From Streptomyces marianii (GTDB lineage: Bacteria > Actinomycetota > Actinomycetes > Streptomycetales > Streptomycetaceae), in NCBI RefSeq assembly GCF_005795905.1, contig NZ_VAWE01000005.1, positions 3,836-67,835 on the forward strand: a stretch of 64,000 bases of DNA, given 5' to 3'. The notes beneath the pieces were generated by a model, which saw only the letters and a program-made list of their open reading frames with translations, made no database searches and had not been told where the DNA came from. The position numbers and the translations under genes were made by a program. The first letter of the stretch is position 1. Each line of letters starts with the position of its first letter. This document shows, one piece after another, positions 41,622-47,421 of this stretch.

Positions 41622-41984
41622 TCAGTCGACGTCGATGAAGCGGAACGCCGCGAACGCGGTGTGGCGCGGGTCCGCGGTGGCGTCGACGATGCGGTCGGCT
41701 TCGTCGACGTCACCGCGGTTCACGGCCTCCGCGGCGCGGCGAGCGGCGTCCCAGTCGACGGGCCCGGCGAAGTTGCCGGGCTCCTGCTGGGTGCGGTGCA
41801 GGCCGGTGTGGAAGCGGACGCTGCGCAGGACGGCGCGCATGGCCCGGCGGACCGGGCGCGGCGAGCGGGCCTGGGTGACGCGGGCCGCCGGCCGACGGAC
41901 GCCAGCGGCGATGAGCACCTCGACGGAGTCGAAGTCGGCGGCCGTCCAGTCACGGCCGATGCGGTTGCGTCGGAGGGCGATCAT
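41622..41984 (-). CDS. Hypothetical protein downstream of whiB
   Basis: 120 aa from ATG 41984, overlapping the whiB stop by one base (TGATG). Basic N-terminus, helical C-terminus (AVNRGDVDEADRIVDATADP). Unknown family. Insertion in whiB has probably cut it off from its original promoter. Confidence 0.7.
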   Translation of the reverse strand: MIALRRNRIGRDWTAADFDSVEVLIAAGVRRPAARVTQARSPRPVRRAMRAVLRSVRFHTGLHRTQQEPGNFAGPVDWDAARRAAEAVNRGDVDEADRIVDATADPRHTAFAAFRFIDVD

Positions 41985-42127
41985 CACGCCTCCTTCCGGG
42001 CCCGGTTGCGGGCGGCGCGGCGCCGCATGGAGCGGCGTTCGTCCTCGCTCAGGCCGCCCCAGACGCCCGACTCCTGGCCGCTTTCCAGCGCCCACTGCAG
42101 GCACTGCTCGATCACCGGGCAGCGGCG
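41984..42127 (-). pseudogene. 3' half of a split whiB gene
   Basis: 47 codons: RRCPVIEQCLQWALESGQ, SGVWGGLSEDERRSMRRR, basic tail. This holds the third and fourth Fe-S cysteines and the GVWGG turn of WhiB. The first half with the other two cysteines lies at 47311-47421. The rejoined 84-aa protein has the normal WhiB length and order. Product lost unless the element excises. Confidence 0.92.
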
Positions 42128-42128
42128 G

Positions 42129-42140
42129 CTTCTCTGGGGG
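42129..42140 (+). repeat. Left terminal inverted repeat of element 2
   Basis: CTTCTCTGGGGG, exact reverse complement of 47296-47307. Confidence 0.9.
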
Positions 42141-42258
42141 CTGATCCTGTGTGGTGAGACGTTGCACCGGAGAGCTATGTTGATCTTCTGAAGATCGTTC
42201 TCTGGGGGTGCGGCTCTGTGGCGGGTTGTTGCATCAACCGTCGGATCATGGAGTTGCA

Positions 42259-43425
42259 TTGCGTGCCTTTCCTGTCAGATTGCCCTCTGGCGTGCGGTAT
42301 TGGACGGTCGTCGATGACGGCTACGAGGTCGTGTTCATCGCTGATCAGTGGCTGAGGTTCTTGCGGTTCGGCCGAAGCCGTTCCGAGTTGACGACGAAGG
42401 CGTACGCCGGCGGCATAGCGCTGTACCTGCGGTGGTGCCGGTCAACCGGGCGCGAATGGTCCGTCGCTGCGCGGGACCTGGGCCTGTTCATGGTCTGGCT
42501 GAAGTACACGCCGTCCTCGCTGGATGACGATCCGGCGCCGGTGGTGCTGGGGCCGGGCGCCGACCCGGCTCGCAAAGAGCGGAGGGTCAACGGCGTCCTG
42601 GCGGCGGTGCGGGGGCTGCTGTCCTACGCGGTGTCGGTCGGTGAGGCACCGAGGTCGGTGCTCGGGCAGATCTACGAGCTGGCGGACAGCCGGGACCTGC
42701 CGGTGGAGGCCCAGGGCGAGGATTCCGGCCTGACCTACCGGCTGCGAGCTGTCCACCGGAGCCAGGAGCCGGAAGCCGAGGTGGACCGGGCCACCGACGA
42801 AGAGCTGGTGGCGATGTTCCTGGAGTGCCGCAATGCCCGTGACCGGCTGATCGTGCTGCTGCTCGGCCGGGTCGGGCTGCGCCGCGGCCAGGCGGCCGGT
42901 CTGCACCGCAGTGACTGTCACCTGCTTCCCGATTCGCGGGCGCTGGGCTGCGACTACAGCGGCGCTCACCTCCACGTCCGGCGACGGGAGAACAGCAACC
43001 GGGCGTGGTCGAAGTCGAAGCAGGCCTGGACACAGCCGTTGGACTTCCTGGTGGTCCAGGCTTTCGACCAGTACATCGACGAGCGACACGAAATACTCGG
43101 GGCGGGCGGCAGCGACTTCCTCCTGGTGAACCTGTTCCGTGAGCCGCTGGGGGCGCCGATGCCGCCGGACGCGCTGGGCGAGTTGTTCGAGCGGCTGAGC
43201 CAGCGGGCCGGGCTGTCGCGGAAGGTCGGTCCCCACATGGCCCGCCGGGCCTTTGGCAGCAACGTTGCGGACGCCGGCGGGTCGGTGGACGAAGTGCAGG
43301 CCCTGCTCGGCCAGACCCACCCGGAGTCGCCCAGGCCCTACCTGATCCCCGACCGGGCCCGATTGCGCGAGGCGATCGAGCGCGTTCCCTCCCCGCGGTC
43401 CCTGCACGGGACGGGGGAGAAGTGA
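42259..43425 (+). CDS. tnpA: TnpA-type tyrosine recombinase
   Basis: 388 aa from TTG 42259 (GGAG 5 nt upstream); GTG 42208 in the same frame is an alternative. R in GRVGLRRGQAAG (~206), HMARR (~326) with the second R, H in LLGQTHPESPRPY and the final Y nucleophile (~361). The stop overlaps tnpB (GTGA). Confidence 0.85.
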   Translation: MRAFPVRLPSGVRYWTVVDDGYEVVFIADQWLRFLRFGRSRSELTTKAYAGGIALYLRWCRSTGREWSVAARDLGLFMVWLKYTPSSLDDDPAPVVLGPGADPARKERRVNGVLAAVRGLLSYAVSVGEAPRSVLGQIYELADSRDLPVEAQGEDSGLTYRLRAVHRSQEPEAEVDRATDEELVAMFLECRNARDRLIVLLLGRVGLRRGQAAGLHRSDCHLLPDSRALGCDYSGAHLHVRRRENSNRAWSKSKQAWTQPLDFLVVQAFDQYIDERHEILGAGGSDFLLVNLFREPLGAPMPPDALGELFERLSQRAGLSRKVGPHMARRAFGSNVADAGGSVDEVQALLGQTHPESPRPYLIPDRARLREAIERVPSPRSLHGTGEK

Positions 43426-45914
43426 TCGGGACACCTCTGCCGCTGGCCCATGAGCTGCAGGACCTGCGGACCCAGGTCATCATCGACGCCTTGGACGCCG
43501 AGTTCCTGAGCCTGGTGAGCTGGGACTGGGAGTCGCGTGTCGTGCGCTACCCCAAGGTCCATCCGGTGCTGGGCATGCCGGACTGCGAAATCCCCGGCTG
43601 CACGAAGGGCACCCCGCTTGGCGAACCGGTCTGTGTCGGCTGCATCGGCCGCTGGCGGCGCTCCGGCCTGTCCTTCGAGGACTTCGCCGCGGTCCCGAGG
43701 GAGAGTGCCTATCACCGTTCCGACGGGCAGATCCTCTGTCGTGTCCCGGGCTGTCAGCGGCCGCCCCGGCTGGTCACGCATGGTCTTTGCACCGCTCACC
43801 AGGCGCGCTGGCACAGCTCGTCCGAGCTGACCGTAGAAGACTTCCTGCGCAACTCCCCGCAGCAGGGGCTGCCCGGGTTCGGGCCCTGCCAGGTCGCCGC
43901 CTGCTACCGGCTGCGCGGCTCAGAGCGGACCCGCTACTGCGAGGTCCACCGAGGCCGCCTCAACCGCGAACGGCGGTCGGGGACCTTCGACGGCGACGAG
44001 GAACGGTGGCGCCTGACGTCGTCGTCGGTGCCGGTCAACCGCGAAGTCAGCCTGCGCGGGCTGCCTGACCGGCTGGTCGCCGAGCTCCTCTACTGCCTTC
44101 AGGTCCGCACCGCCCGGGAGGCGAAGACCAAGGATCACCGGATGCGGCACATCAGCGATCAACTGCGTCTGTTCCAGGTCCCGAGCCTGGAGACGCTGGG
44201 AGAGGACGACCTGATCCGCGCGGGGATGGTCGATGACCTTCGGATGATCATCCGTGGTGCACAGACCGCGCTGCGCAGGCTGGGGGCGACTGCGGAGACC
44301 GAGCGGCTCAAGGACGTCTGGGACCTGTTCGTCTTCGGGCACCACGGCACGCTCACGTTCAGCCGGATCCACCAGCGTCCCCTGCGGGAGGCGGTCAAGG
44401 TCTGGGCCTATGACGAACTCCCTCGGCGTCGCGGGCGGCATGTCGCCAGTTCCATGCAGAACATGATCCGCGGCATGGAGCAGCTCTCGGACAGCCTGCG
44501 GCTGCAGCGGGACGACGCGGGGCATGCACTTCGGCTTCTGGGCCGCACGGACATGGTCAGCTTCTGCAACCGCGTCGCGTTCCTCACCGAGACCGGCGTC
44601 TTCGGGGCTCACCACCGGGTCAATGTGATCCGATACGTCCGCAGAATCGTGAACCGGATCCGTGTCCTGGGTCTCACCGGCCCCGGCCAGATGCTGGAGG
44701 GCCTGCCGGCGGACTTCTCCCTGTCCATGGAGGACATCCCCGACGAGCCCGAGGACACCGAGGCCGGACGGGACCTGCCGGACGAGGTGATGCGGGAGCT
44801 CTGTGACAACTTCGATCTGCTGGAGAAGATGAGCAACCGCGAGTACCGCGTCGCGGCCGAGCTCCTTGTCGACACCGGCCGGCGGCCGGACGAGATCAGC
44901 ACGCTGGCGCTGGAGTGCCTGGGCAAGGACCCGGACGGGACCTTGGTCCTGATCTATGACAACTCCAAGAACTACCGGCTGGGCCGTCGTCTGCCGATCG
45001 CGAAGGCGACCGCCGCCGTGATCACTGCGCAGCAGGAGCGGGTCCGTGAGCGCTTCCCTGGCACCCCGGCCGACAAGCTCAAGCTGCTGCCGAGCCCGGT
45101 GGCCAACCCCGCGGGAACGAAGCCGATCGGTTCGATCGGTGACGCCCACCGGGCCTGGGTCAACGCGCTTCCCGACATCATGATTCCGGTCGTCGTCGAG
45201 GTCGACGGGCAGCTGGTGACGAAGCTGCTGCCGTTCGACAAGTCCAAGATCTTTCCCTACGCCTACCGGCACTCCTTCGCTCAGCGCCACGCGGACGCCA
45301 ACGTCGACCCCGACGTGCTCATGGATTTGATGGACCATCGTGAACTCTCCACAACTCAGGGCTATTATCGGGTCAGCCAGGAGCGACGCCGTGAGGCGGT
45401 CGACCGGGTCACCGCGTTGCAGTTCGACCGCCGCGGCACCCGCGTCTGGCGCAAAGCCCAAGGACTTCTGGACTCCGAGCACGTACGGCGGGCCATCGGC
45501 GAAGTCGCCACGGCCTACGGCATCTGCCTGGAACCCCACAACGTCGCGGCCGGCGGCCAGAGCTGCCCGCTCCGCTTCCGCTGCATCGGCTGCGACCACT
45601 TCCGCACTGACGTCTCCTACCTGCCTGACCTGGAGCGATACCTCTCTGATCTCCTCCGCAGCCGGGAGCGGCTGATGTCGGCCTTCGAAGCCGACGACTG
45701 GGCCCGCAGCGAAGCGATGCCCTCCGAGGAGGAGATCAGCCGGGTCCGCCGTCTGATCAACCGGGTCAAGGCGGACTTGGACGACCTCTCGGACGAAGAA
45801 CGTGCCCAGATCGAAGAAGCCGTCGCCGTGGTCCGCCGCGGCCGCTCAGTGATGCTGGGCATGCCCCGCGTCGGCCAGCCACTTCCCGACGTCAGGCCCT
45901 GGAGGCTTCCGTGA
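43422..45914 (+). CDS. tnpB: TnpB-type large tyrosine recombinase
   Basis: 830 aa from GTG 43422. Two N-terminal zinc-like repeats (CEIPGC..CVGC and CRVPGC..CTAH) followed by a third (CQVAACY..C). Catalytic R in DTGRRPDEIS (~487), RHSFAQRH (~616), H in MDHRELSTTQGYY and a Y just after. A C-terminal CPLRFRCIGCDH Cys cluster. Stop overlaps tnpC. Acts with TnpA on the inverted repeats. Confidence 0.88.
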   Translation: MIGTPLPLAHELQDLRTQVIIDALDAEFLSLVSWDWESRVVRYPKVHPVLGMPDCEIPGCTKGTPLGEPVCVGCIGRWRRSGLSFEDFAAVPRESAYHRSDGQILCRVPGCQRPPRLVTHGLCTAHQARWHSSSELTVEDFLRNSPQQGLPGFGPCQVAACYRLRGSERTRYCEVHRGRLNRERRSGTFDGDEERWRLTSSSVPVNREVSLRGLPDRLVAELLYCLQVRTAREAKTKDHRMRHISDQLRLFQVPSLETLGEDDLIRAGMVDDLRMIIRGAQTALRRLGATAETERLKDVWDLFVFGHHGTLTFSRIHQRPLREAVKVWAYDELPRRRGRHVASSMQNMIRGMEQLSDSLRLQRDDAGHALRLLGRTDMVSFCNRVAFLTETGVFGAHHRVNVIRYVRRIVNRIRVLGLTGPGQMLEGLPADFSLSMEDIPDEPEDTEAGRDLPDEVMRELCDNFDLLEKMSNREYRVAAELLVDTGRRPDEISTLALECLGKDPDGTLVLIYDNSKNYRLGRRLPIAKATAAVITAQQERVRERFPGTPADKLKLLPSPVANPAGTKPIGSIGDAHRAWVNALPDIMIPVVVEVDGQLVTKLLPFDKSKIFPYAYRHSFAQRHADANVDPDVLMDLMDHRELSTTQGYYRVSQERRREAVDRVTALQFDRRGTRVWRKAQGLLDSEHVRRAIGEVATAYGICLEPHNVAAGGQSCPLRFRCIGCDHFRTDVSYLPDLERYLSDLLRSRERLMSAFEADDWARSEAMPSEEEISRVRRLINRVKADLDDLSDEERAQIEEAVAVVRRGRSVMLGMPRVGQPLPDVRPWRLP

Positions 45915-46435
45915 TCCCTGCTATGCGCGACGGCCGGCAGGCCGACACCGAGCGGCGCCGCCAGCGGGTTGCCACCGCGGTGAAGAACGCCGCGAGGAAC
46001 GGCACGCCCATCAGCGTCTCGGCCATCGCCCGGCAAGCCGGAGTCGATCGCAGCTTCCTCTATCGTCACCGCGACTTGCTGGAGGTCGTGCACGCGGCCG
46101 AGCTCGAACCTGCGGCTCAAGACCCGGCAGGCACTTCACCAGTGAGCCGGGCCTCGCTCCAAGCCGATCTCGCGAACGCTCAGGCTCGCAACACCCGACT
46201 TGCCGCCCGCGTCCAGCAGTTGGAGAAGCGGTTGTCGCAGGTGCTGGGGACTCAGGCATGGCAGGAGTCAGGGCTCGGGGCTCCAGCGGACATCGACGAG
46301 CTCCAGCGGAAGATCACGAGACTGGAGCAGCGCAACGTCGAACTGGCCTCCGCGTTGGAGGAGGCCCGATCCGATCTCGATGCCGCGCGGGCGGCCAACC
46401 GGGACCTGACGAGAGCGCTGAACCAACGCGGCTGA
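45911..46435 (+). CDS. tnpC: TnpC-like DUF6262 DNA-binding protein
   Basis: 174 aa from GTG 45911. N-terminal HTH (ISVSAIARQAGVDRSFLYRH) and a long C-terminal coiled coil (LARQ...RNTRLAARVQQLEKRL, LEQRNVELASALEEARSDL). Matches DUF6262, the TnpC position of Tn554-like trios, where it directs orientation and efficiency of transposition. It converges on the methyltransferase gene. Confidence 0.85.
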   Translation: MIPAMRDGRQADTERRRQRVATAVKNAARNGTPISVSAIARQAGVDRSFLYRHRDLLEVVHAAELEPAAQDPAGTSPVSRASLQADLANAQARNTRLAARVQQLEKRLSQVLGTQAWQESGLGAPADIDELQRKITRLEQRNVELASALEEARSDLDAARAANRDLTRALNQRG

Positions 46436-46442
46436 GGCGGTC

Positions 46443-46483
46443 CAGGTTGTCGCGTGCCGTCGAAGGCGGCACGCGACAACCTG
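46443..46483. terminator. Terminator between tnpC and methyltransferase
   Basis: Perfect 17-bp stem CAGGTTGTCGCGTGCCG / CGGCACGCGACAACCTG, 7-nt loop, midway between two convergent genes. Confidence 0.88.
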
Positions 46484-46485
46484 AA

Positions 46486-47127
46486 TCACTTCCCTGCACG
46501 CATCAGCAGATGCCCCCGGCGAAACCGTTCTCCCTCGCATGGCTCACGCAGCATCCGGCCGACCTCGGTGAAGCCGGCCGCACCGGCCAGCCCTGCAAGG
46601 TCGTCGATCGGCCATCGGTAGGCTGTCGTCACCTTGTGGTCGAACGCCGTGGTCGGCTCACCTTCCGACTCGAAGAAGGCGAGCAGAAGAGTTCCGTCGG
46701 GCACGAGTACCCGATGGAACTCGGCGAAGTACGCCTGCACGTCCTTCGGTGGGGCGTGAATGATCGAGTACCAGGACACGATGCCTTGCAACTGGCCATC
46801 GGCCAGGTCGAGGGCATCCATGGAACCGACCTCGAACCGCAGGTCCGGGTATGTCTCCCGCGCGAGATCGATCATCACCGGCGACAAGTCGACGCCGAAG
46901 ACGTCCAGCCCCAGATCCCGCAGGTGTGCGGTGACAGGTCCAGGGCCGCATCCCAGCTCGGCGACGGGCCCGGAGCCGGCGGCCCGCACAGCTTCGGCGA
47001 ACGCGGCGAGCACCGCGCGATCCAGCGGAAGAGTGTTGAGGTCGTCGCGTGGCAATTCGGCATAGAGAACGGCGACGGCATCGTAGGCATCAGCTGTCGC
47101 ACCGTGATACGAGGAAAGTTCAGTCAC
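46486..47127 (-). CDS. Class I SAM methyltransferase (element 2 cargo)
   Basis: 213 aa from GTG 47127. Motif I VAELGCGPGPVTAHLRD, motif II FGVDLSPVMIDLA, GSMDALDLADGQLQGIVSWY, and LVPDGTLLLAFFES. It faces the recombinase genes exactly as in element 1, but is a different methyltransferase subtype (YhjD-like, SSYHGATADAYDAVA). Substrate unknown; lacks a nucleic-acid methylase motif. Confidence 0.85.
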   Translation of the reverse strand: MTELSSYHGATADAYDAVAVLYAELPRDDLNTLPLDRAVLAAFAEAVRAAGSGPVAELGCGPGPVTAHLRDLGLDVFGVDLSPVMIDLARETYPDLRFEVGSMDALDLADGQLQGIVSWYSIIHAPPKDVQAYFAEFHRVLVPDGTLLLAFFESEGEPTTAFDHKVTTAYRWPIDDLAGLAGAAGFTEVGRMLREPCEGERFRRGHLLMRAGK

Positions 47128-47295
47128 AAGCGAGGACCCTAGAGCCTTCCTGACGCTGACGGCTGGCTATCGGACAGGCCCACTGGCGACTGCTCGAAGC
47201 GACAGTGGCGCCACATGTGTTGCACACGATAGTGTCGCTCGCACCGGCGCTGAGCTGCACAAAGTGGTCCCCACTCGCCTCGCGCCACACGGTTA

Positions 47296-47307
47296 CCCCC
47301 AGAGAAG
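47296..47307 (-). repeat. Right terminal inverted repeat of element 2
   Basis: CCCCCAGAGAAG, perfect match to the left repeat in inverted orientation. Confidence 0.9.
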
Positions 47308-47310
47308 TGC

Positions 47311-47421
47311 GCAGACCGATTTGGCTTCCTCGATCTGCAGCAGGGCCGGGCCGGTGTTGCCGATCGGGAAGAAGAGCTCCGGGTCTTCCTCGCGGCAGAC
47401 GGCGTTGTGTCGCCAGTCCAT
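47311..47421 (-). pseudogene. 5' half of the split whiB gene
   Basis: 37 codons from ATG 47421, with an ideal GGAGG site. MDWRHNAVCREEDPELFFPI and the following GNTGPALLQIEEAKSVC carry the first two Fe-S cysteines. The original frame stops within the element shortly after codon 41. Together with 41984-42127 it rebuilds a WhiB of 84 aa. Confidence 0.92.

Follow-up and report, generated by a model that had tools for sequence, protein, structure and literature searches.

A Tn554-related transposon in Streptomyces marianii and its preference for one site in class I whiB genes

A 64,000-nucleotide stretch of the Streptomyces marianii genome (assembly GCF_005795905.1, contig NZ_VAWE01000005.1; G000:C5:3836-67835, hereafter the window) was analyzed for a transposon that splits a whiB gene within its CxxC codons. 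The element is best read as an actinobacterial Tn554-related site-specific transposon, the main target of its lineage being a site that spans the CxxC codons of class I whiB genes; it would carry a short core from one site to the next and would have moved, in this genome, from the chromosome to a plasmid (probability about 0.8). The sequence itself shows the anatomy of the element, insertion at a single site in several different whiB genes, the 6-bp cores and a 91-bp tract of shared flank. The window lies on C5, a 67.8-kb contig of the 9.0-Mb genome, which is probably a plasmid since the genes adjacent to the element (DUF2637, ATP/GTP-binding and TraB genes) match those of linear Streptomyces plasmids. 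Loci in this and other genomes are cited by L numbers.

Results

The split gene and its class

The two whiB halves that flank the element (Table 1) were joined with the 6-bp core counted once and gave 255 bp, that is, 84 codons and a stop, with four cysteines spaced C-x27-C-x2-C-x5-C. The reading frame was restored only with a single 6-bp core, and no longer target duplication was present. The insertion point falls between the second and third cysteines. An initial annotation of this DNA had claimed that the halves rebuild an 84-aa WhiB with its four cysteines in order, and both the reading and Pfam agreed with it. No intact allele of exactly this plasmid whiB was found, the nearest plasmid homologues compared differing at 12-14 of 85 bases of the inner left flank. 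Empty class I whiB genes were present on homologous plasmids (L060-L063), and an empty whiB was present at the chromosomal site orthologous to that of a second copy described below (L125, L126). An ATG within the element opens a reading frame (ORF 41984-42259) that continues in frame through the 3' whiB half. It could pass for a rescue fusion, a reading set aside because its extra cysteine was absent in relatives L010 and L032.

The target gene is assigned by sequence comparison to class I (WhiB1/WblE-type), the class in which WhiB1/WblE is placed (PMC6282962; all papers cited here are represented by excerpts). The intact paralogue L109 gave WhiB1 as its best structure match (E 5.9e-43; next WhiB3, 1.5e-16), the 5' half in the window is near-identical to that of L109, and the FFPIG.TGPA-type sequence of L109 recurs, slightly altered, in the other whiB halves (by eye). 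Canonical wblE, of which L109 is the copy in this genome, was intact in 7/7 genomes checked, the six others being 98-100% identical to L109. The whiB targets, in the cases seen, were always extra copies and never canonical wblE; studies disagree on whether wblE is essential in Streptomyces (PMC6282962).

Repeated insertion at one site

Relatives were sought among 392 same-genus genomes, of which 28 (S. marianii included) held TnpA relatives at E<=1e-60; a contig scan gave 20 loci, and plasmid records added more. Both whiB halves flanked the element in the window and at L002, L059 (plasmid of NBC_01207), L068 (NRRL S-340; the same insertion as G077/L010/L039), L070 (MNU76) and L073 (Isolate_45). 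At L054 (G125) the copy was decayed, flanked by whiB on its left side and by a whiB-like remnant on its right. At L084 and at L104/L105 (one shared insertion) the whiB 5' half was found at the right end, and the left ends were not reached. Pairwise flank differences among the six two-sided cases were 10-37/120 on the left and 12-31/100 on the right, and for L084, L104/L105 and L069/L070 the right flank differed from those of the other whiB genes at 9-26 of 80 bases. By these differences the insertions are therefore assigned to eight distinguishable whiB genes, all hit at the same site, plus the one decayed case. Such repeated use of one exact site in different whiB genes excludes random placement.

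L069 and L070, both from Streptomyces sp. MNU76, shared their right flank (0/80 differences) and differed in their left flanks (a MerR gene vs whiB). Misassembly or rearrangement may have affected one of them, as L070 reaches a contig edge, or the copies may have recombined, and they were counted as one whiB event.

The initial annotation had proposed a site preference for whiB, to be checked by a search for the element ends next to whiB fragments in other genomes. The genomes and plasmids compared here showed the same site occupied in further whiB genes. The preference holds across the eight genes and the decayed case, with two refinements: it concerns the class I subgroup, and it is not exclusive. 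Relatives were not confined to unrelated targets, though some close relatives sit at such targets.

Second copy, cores and direction of the jump

A second copy, its element 100% identical, was found at C1:670556-675945 (L002), where it occupies the same site in a different whiB gene, a chromosomal one. The alignment of the window with L002 covered 5,409 bases and had 33 mismatches, all outside the element: 10 in whiB at the far left and 23 on the right, of which the 6-bp core accounts for 3 and whiB for 20. The right flanks diverge exactly at the element end, and the left flanks are identical for 91 bp. Two empty orthologues match the L002 locus on both sides, L125 at 90% and 83% and L126 at 82% and 80%. 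Against L125, L002 had 21/85 mismatches inside the tract, 3/84 just outside and 4/150 on the right; against L126 the counts were 19/85, 13/84 and 8/150. The 91-bp tract is accordingly judged foreign to the chromosomal locus because of the comparison with L125, and the right flank of L002 reads as native to its locus. A third, partial relative (right end only; L004, L057) lies at G000:C1:254221-254335, beside a reading assigned by eye to an IS256-type transposase.

Insertions of the elements termed SEs and of Tn552-II/Tn554 retain the native 6-7 bp on the left and have the left bases of the donor on the right (PMC10214605, PMC12486829). The cores compared here fit this rule, the left core being taken as native and the right one as brought in by the element. 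At L059 the right core would change a Cys codon to Trp and is therefore not considered native. The right core of L002 (GGCGGC) differs from the cores of L125 (GTGCGC) and L126 (GGGCAC) and is likewise not considered native, because neither empty orthologue carries it. The window has GTGCGC as its right core, the same six bases that form the native core in L125, an empty orthologue of the chromosomal gene at L002. This match suggests a jump from chromosome to plasmid.

In the proposed mechanism TnpA, TnpB and TnpC would make a circular copy that includes the 6 bp on the left side of the donor insertion; when this copy integrates, the 6 bp of the target would stay on the left and the carried 6 bp would end up on the right. 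In this genome the plasmid copy in the window probably derives from the chromosomal one. Afterwards, 91 bp of the left flank of the plasmid copy would have overwritten the chromosomal flank by gene conversion, an event that would explain both these 91 bp and the GGCGGC left core of L002.

The same site preference combined with a jump from plasmid to chromosome is doubtful, and is the most serious of the alternatives. The right core of L002 is identical to the left core in the window, and the 91-bp tract moved in that direction too, but the right core of the window, with its match to L125, would be left unexplained. The native core lost from this strain is itself uncertain, as the core of L126 differs from that of L125. 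GGCGGC is moreover common, being the right core in 13/30 right ends, so that its presence at L002 is weakly informative. The binomial tail for this count at the frequency of GGCGGC in the compared DNA was 8e-27, a value that is indicative only because the ends are related; the cores of L098 and L102 were extrapolated past the aligned part, and L069 and L070, with their one right flank, were counted as two. Five of the 13 (L085, L064, L090, L094, L097) lie outside recognizable whiB, as expected if they arrived from a whiB site. The core of canonical wblE was GGCGGC in 3/7 and GACGGC in 4/7 genomes.

The shared site could also reflect descent, with one old whiB insertion passed on by inheritance and transferred from one whiB paralogue to another through homologous recombination. 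The identical 91-bp left flank indicates that flank sequence was exchanged between whiB copies, and the whiB-labeled rows form one clade on the TnpA tree. We nevertheless consider descent improbable. The right flank of L002 is native and diverges at the core, not inside whiB; the right cores differ between insertions (GTGCGC, GGCGGC, GCAGCC); the element of L059 is 95-98% identical to that in the window, whereas the whiB halves are only ~85% identical; and members of the same clade sit with clean ends in IS256-type and oxidoreductase genes, which argues that the element moves by itself.

Targets outside whiB and related lineages

The preference for whiB is strong but not absolute. Left junctions were collected where TnpA, or its remaining fragment, was at least ~80% identical; 7/13 lie in whiB (window, L002, L059, L068, L070, L073, L054). 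Several observations weigh against the interpretation preferred here. The other 6/13 left junctions lie outside whiB: in a GFO_IDH_MocA oxidoreductase gene (L066), in sequence without a Pfam family (L067), in DprA (L071, by eye), in a MerR gene with whiB on the right (L069), in a Transposase_mut gene (IS256 type; L064) and in a remnant (L085). The trio of L066 (S. griseofuscus) is 96-98% identical, and this genome keeps two further intact class I-like whiB genes, 73% and 63% identical, both empty. Of 18 right ends in the 392 genomes, 12 adjoin neither a recognizable whiB nor an IS256-type gene (other or unreadable). In the genome under study, the sole exact match to a combined 18-bp motif is the intact, empty canonical wblE, and with <=2 mismatches the motif gave 143 matches vs 209 for a reversed control. 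In addition, the contig of L070 breaks off at that locus, the 91-bp tract may have arisen in assembly, and transposition itself is deduced from the sequence.

The remaining right ends adjoin a readable class I whiB (3), a whiB-like remnant (2) or an IS256-type gene (1), all read by eye. Of the 12 others, 11 show no more than 76-88% identity and could come from other lineages; the twelfth, L087 (98%), lies outside whiB. A further scan matched 10/395 genomes, all already within the 392-genome right-end scan. In S. varsoviensis (L067) no class I whiB beyond canonical wblE was found, the next match being 47% identical. The right end of L095 (G131) adjoins a Tn3-family transposase-like gene (by eye).

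For the TnpA tree, 40 rows were chosen from the loci; 22/40 carried no target label and did not enter the counts. The tree leaves out truncated copies (L029-L032, L034, L035, L054, L064, L084 and L085 among others), L017 and duplicate records of one copy; from one set of plasmid records it uses L059 and L065. Labels were assigned by eye from the flank for L071 (DprA), L076 (AAA_33), L018/L078 (polymerase-like) and L072/L083 ('YGFGG'). The whiB label required one change and marked a single clade (95/98; 0/500 shuffles as low). The AAA_33, polymerase-like and YGFGG labels required one change each. A strict rule of one lineage and one target was rejected, since Ku and DprA required two changes each and three rows inside the whiB clade (L066, L067, L069) have no left whiB flank.

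A Pfam scan of 30 left flanks (12/30 without a family) gave Ku (L019, L022, L036), AAA_33 (L015, L075), DprA (L020), an IS256-type transposase (L064) and single others. Related trios thus recur in Ku, in AAA_33 and in DprA genes, the last two with one additional case each by eye (L076 and L071). No relative was found in viral contigs using two peptide patterns.

An element of low target specificity that survives best in dispensable genes, such as extra plasmid whiB copies, would accommodate the 6/13 non-whiB left junctions and the intact canonical wblE of 7/7 genomes, but is very improbable, as survival alone can explain neither why a small gene is hit again and again at one base nor why related lineages occupy the same position of other genes (AAA_33: L015, L075, L076).

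The DNA site

The whiB sites read GGGCAGC-core-AGACSG or close variants, and the IS256-type site, GCGGCAGC-GCCGGC-TGACCGG, is similar. The recognized feature is probably DNA, and not the protein or its expression, because the IS256-type gene runs opposite to whiB relative to the element (+ strand vs minus). The short 18-bp motif was rejected as a sufficient definition of the site: it is rarer than its control and its exact match is unoccupied, and the site must therefore hold more information. The N-terminal part of TnpB, a candidate for setting the target, is among the most variable parts between lineages, yet it also varies among members that share the whiB target.

Anatomy of the element

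Coordinates are collected in Table 1. The trio tnpA-tnpB-tnpC named in the initial annotation was confirmed by Pfam (Phage_integrase, Phage_integrase and DUF6262), and the three reading frames overlap. The perfect 12-bp terminal repeats described there were corrected to 11 bp belonging to the element, the 12th being a flanking core base that matches by chance on each side. The methyltransferase cargo, the 6-bp cores and the second identical copy in the genome were additional to that description. The start codon of tnpA is uncertain; the annotation of NZ_CP108555.1 uses the same start. The N-terminal part of TnpB is rich in Cys. A repeat like the internal copy of the 11-bp terminal sequence is also present in relatives, and this copy is possibly a recombinase binding site. 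The tnpC and methyltransferase genes converge on an inverted repeat that is probably a two-way terminator. The methyltransferase was also found in L059 and L073 (96-97%). Cargo varies among close relatives, with MerR and DUF6194 genes in L064; in L104 and L105 this pair also adjoins the right end, on its left side.

Table 1. Features of the element and its flanks (positions in the window)
Feature	Position	Strand	Details
whiB 3' half (RRCPVIEQC... to stop), left core included	41984-42129	-	146 bp; Pfam Whib E 3.8e-14
Left-flank tract identical to that of L002	42039-42129		91 bp; 0 mismatches; 10 in 30 bases beyond
Left 6-bp core GGCGGC	42124-42129		read as native target core
Whole element	42130-47306		5,177 bp; ends are 11-bp terminal inverted repeats
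Left terminal inverted repeat TTCTCTGGGGG	42130-42140	+	11 bp
Internal direct copy of 11-bp terminal sequence	42198-42208	+	68 bp inside left end
tnpA, tyrosine recombinase	42208-43425	+	405 aa; Phage_integrase E 3.6e-14
tnpB, large recombinase-type protein	43422-45914	+	830 aa; Phage_integrase residues 609-654, E 4.4e-9
tnpC, DUF6262	45911-46435	+	174 aa; PF19776 E 5.7e-12
Inverted repeat, imperfect	46443-46483		reverse self match 41 bp, 87.8%
Class I SAM-dependent methyltransferase, cargo	46486-47127	-	Methyltransf_25 E 3.3e-20
Right terminal inverted repeat CCCCCAGAGAA	47296-47306	+	11 bp
Right 6-bp core GTGCGC	47307-47312		read as carried in from donor site
whiB 5' half (MDWRHNAVC...AKSV and first base of Cys codon)	47313-47421	-	109 bp; Pfam Whib E 1.5e-7

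Comparison with known systems

TnpB was matched to OL539428.1, annotated as 'Tn554 family transposase B' (23.7% identity, residues 418-762, E 5e-8). This match, the gene order and the 6-bp cores uphold the earlier description of the element as Tn554-like. The features of a Tn554-type element were found here: the gene order, the relationship of TnpB, a short core with donor bases at one end and a preferred target (7/13 left junctions). The TnpB identity is, however, low and covers less than half of the protein.

Actinobacterial Tn554-related elements were defined by Van Houdt et al. 2012 (PMC3414803), and the element in the window resembles them in its one ordinary and one abnormally long tyrosine recombinase, its TnpC-like third gene and its host, Streptomyces being included among theirs. 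Identical copies on the chromosome and a plasmid of one strain are described there, and the existence of several similar attB sites is suggested. No target gene is named in the excerpt, whereas the target is identified here. Tn552-II/Tn554 of Staphylococcus share with the present element the tnpABC genes, a target within a gene, donor att bases at the right end and transposition from chromosome to plasmid, as proposed here; Tn552-II differs in its 7-bp att and its other target genes, in place of a 6-bp core and whiB (PMC12486829).

Four core genes (intA, tfp, intB, srap) make up the SEs, which have been described mainly in Gammaproteobacteria, whereas the element described here has three recombination genes and a methyltransferase; no fourth SE core gene was seen between its ends. 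RIT elements likewise have three adjacent overlapping genes, but all three encode tyrosine recombinases (PMC3414803), whereas the third gene here encodes a DUF6262 protein. No report of whiB as a target of Tn554-type elements was found in the literature searched, from which subscription papers were mostly absent; in its excerpt, one Arthrobacter genome paper mentions Tn554 and whiB separately.

Discussion

Confidence and doubt are evenly matched for a wider proposal, in which each lineage would favor the DNA of a conserved motif in a different widespread gene (the CxxC of class I whiB, Ku, an AAA_33-domain gene, DprA). For the whiB lineage, class I whiB copies that are dispensable would form a permanent network of landing sites for moves between chromosome and plasmids; canonical wblE would be spared, and the right end would keep a 6-bp record of the last residence.

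With the element in S. marianii, an actinobacterial Tn554-type transposon gains a defined natural target, and a single genome holds what are probably its donor and recipient copies. Related lineages use different target genes, so that the question of which part of the trio reads the target becomes testable. Split whiB copies in genome annotations may be explained by elements of this kind.

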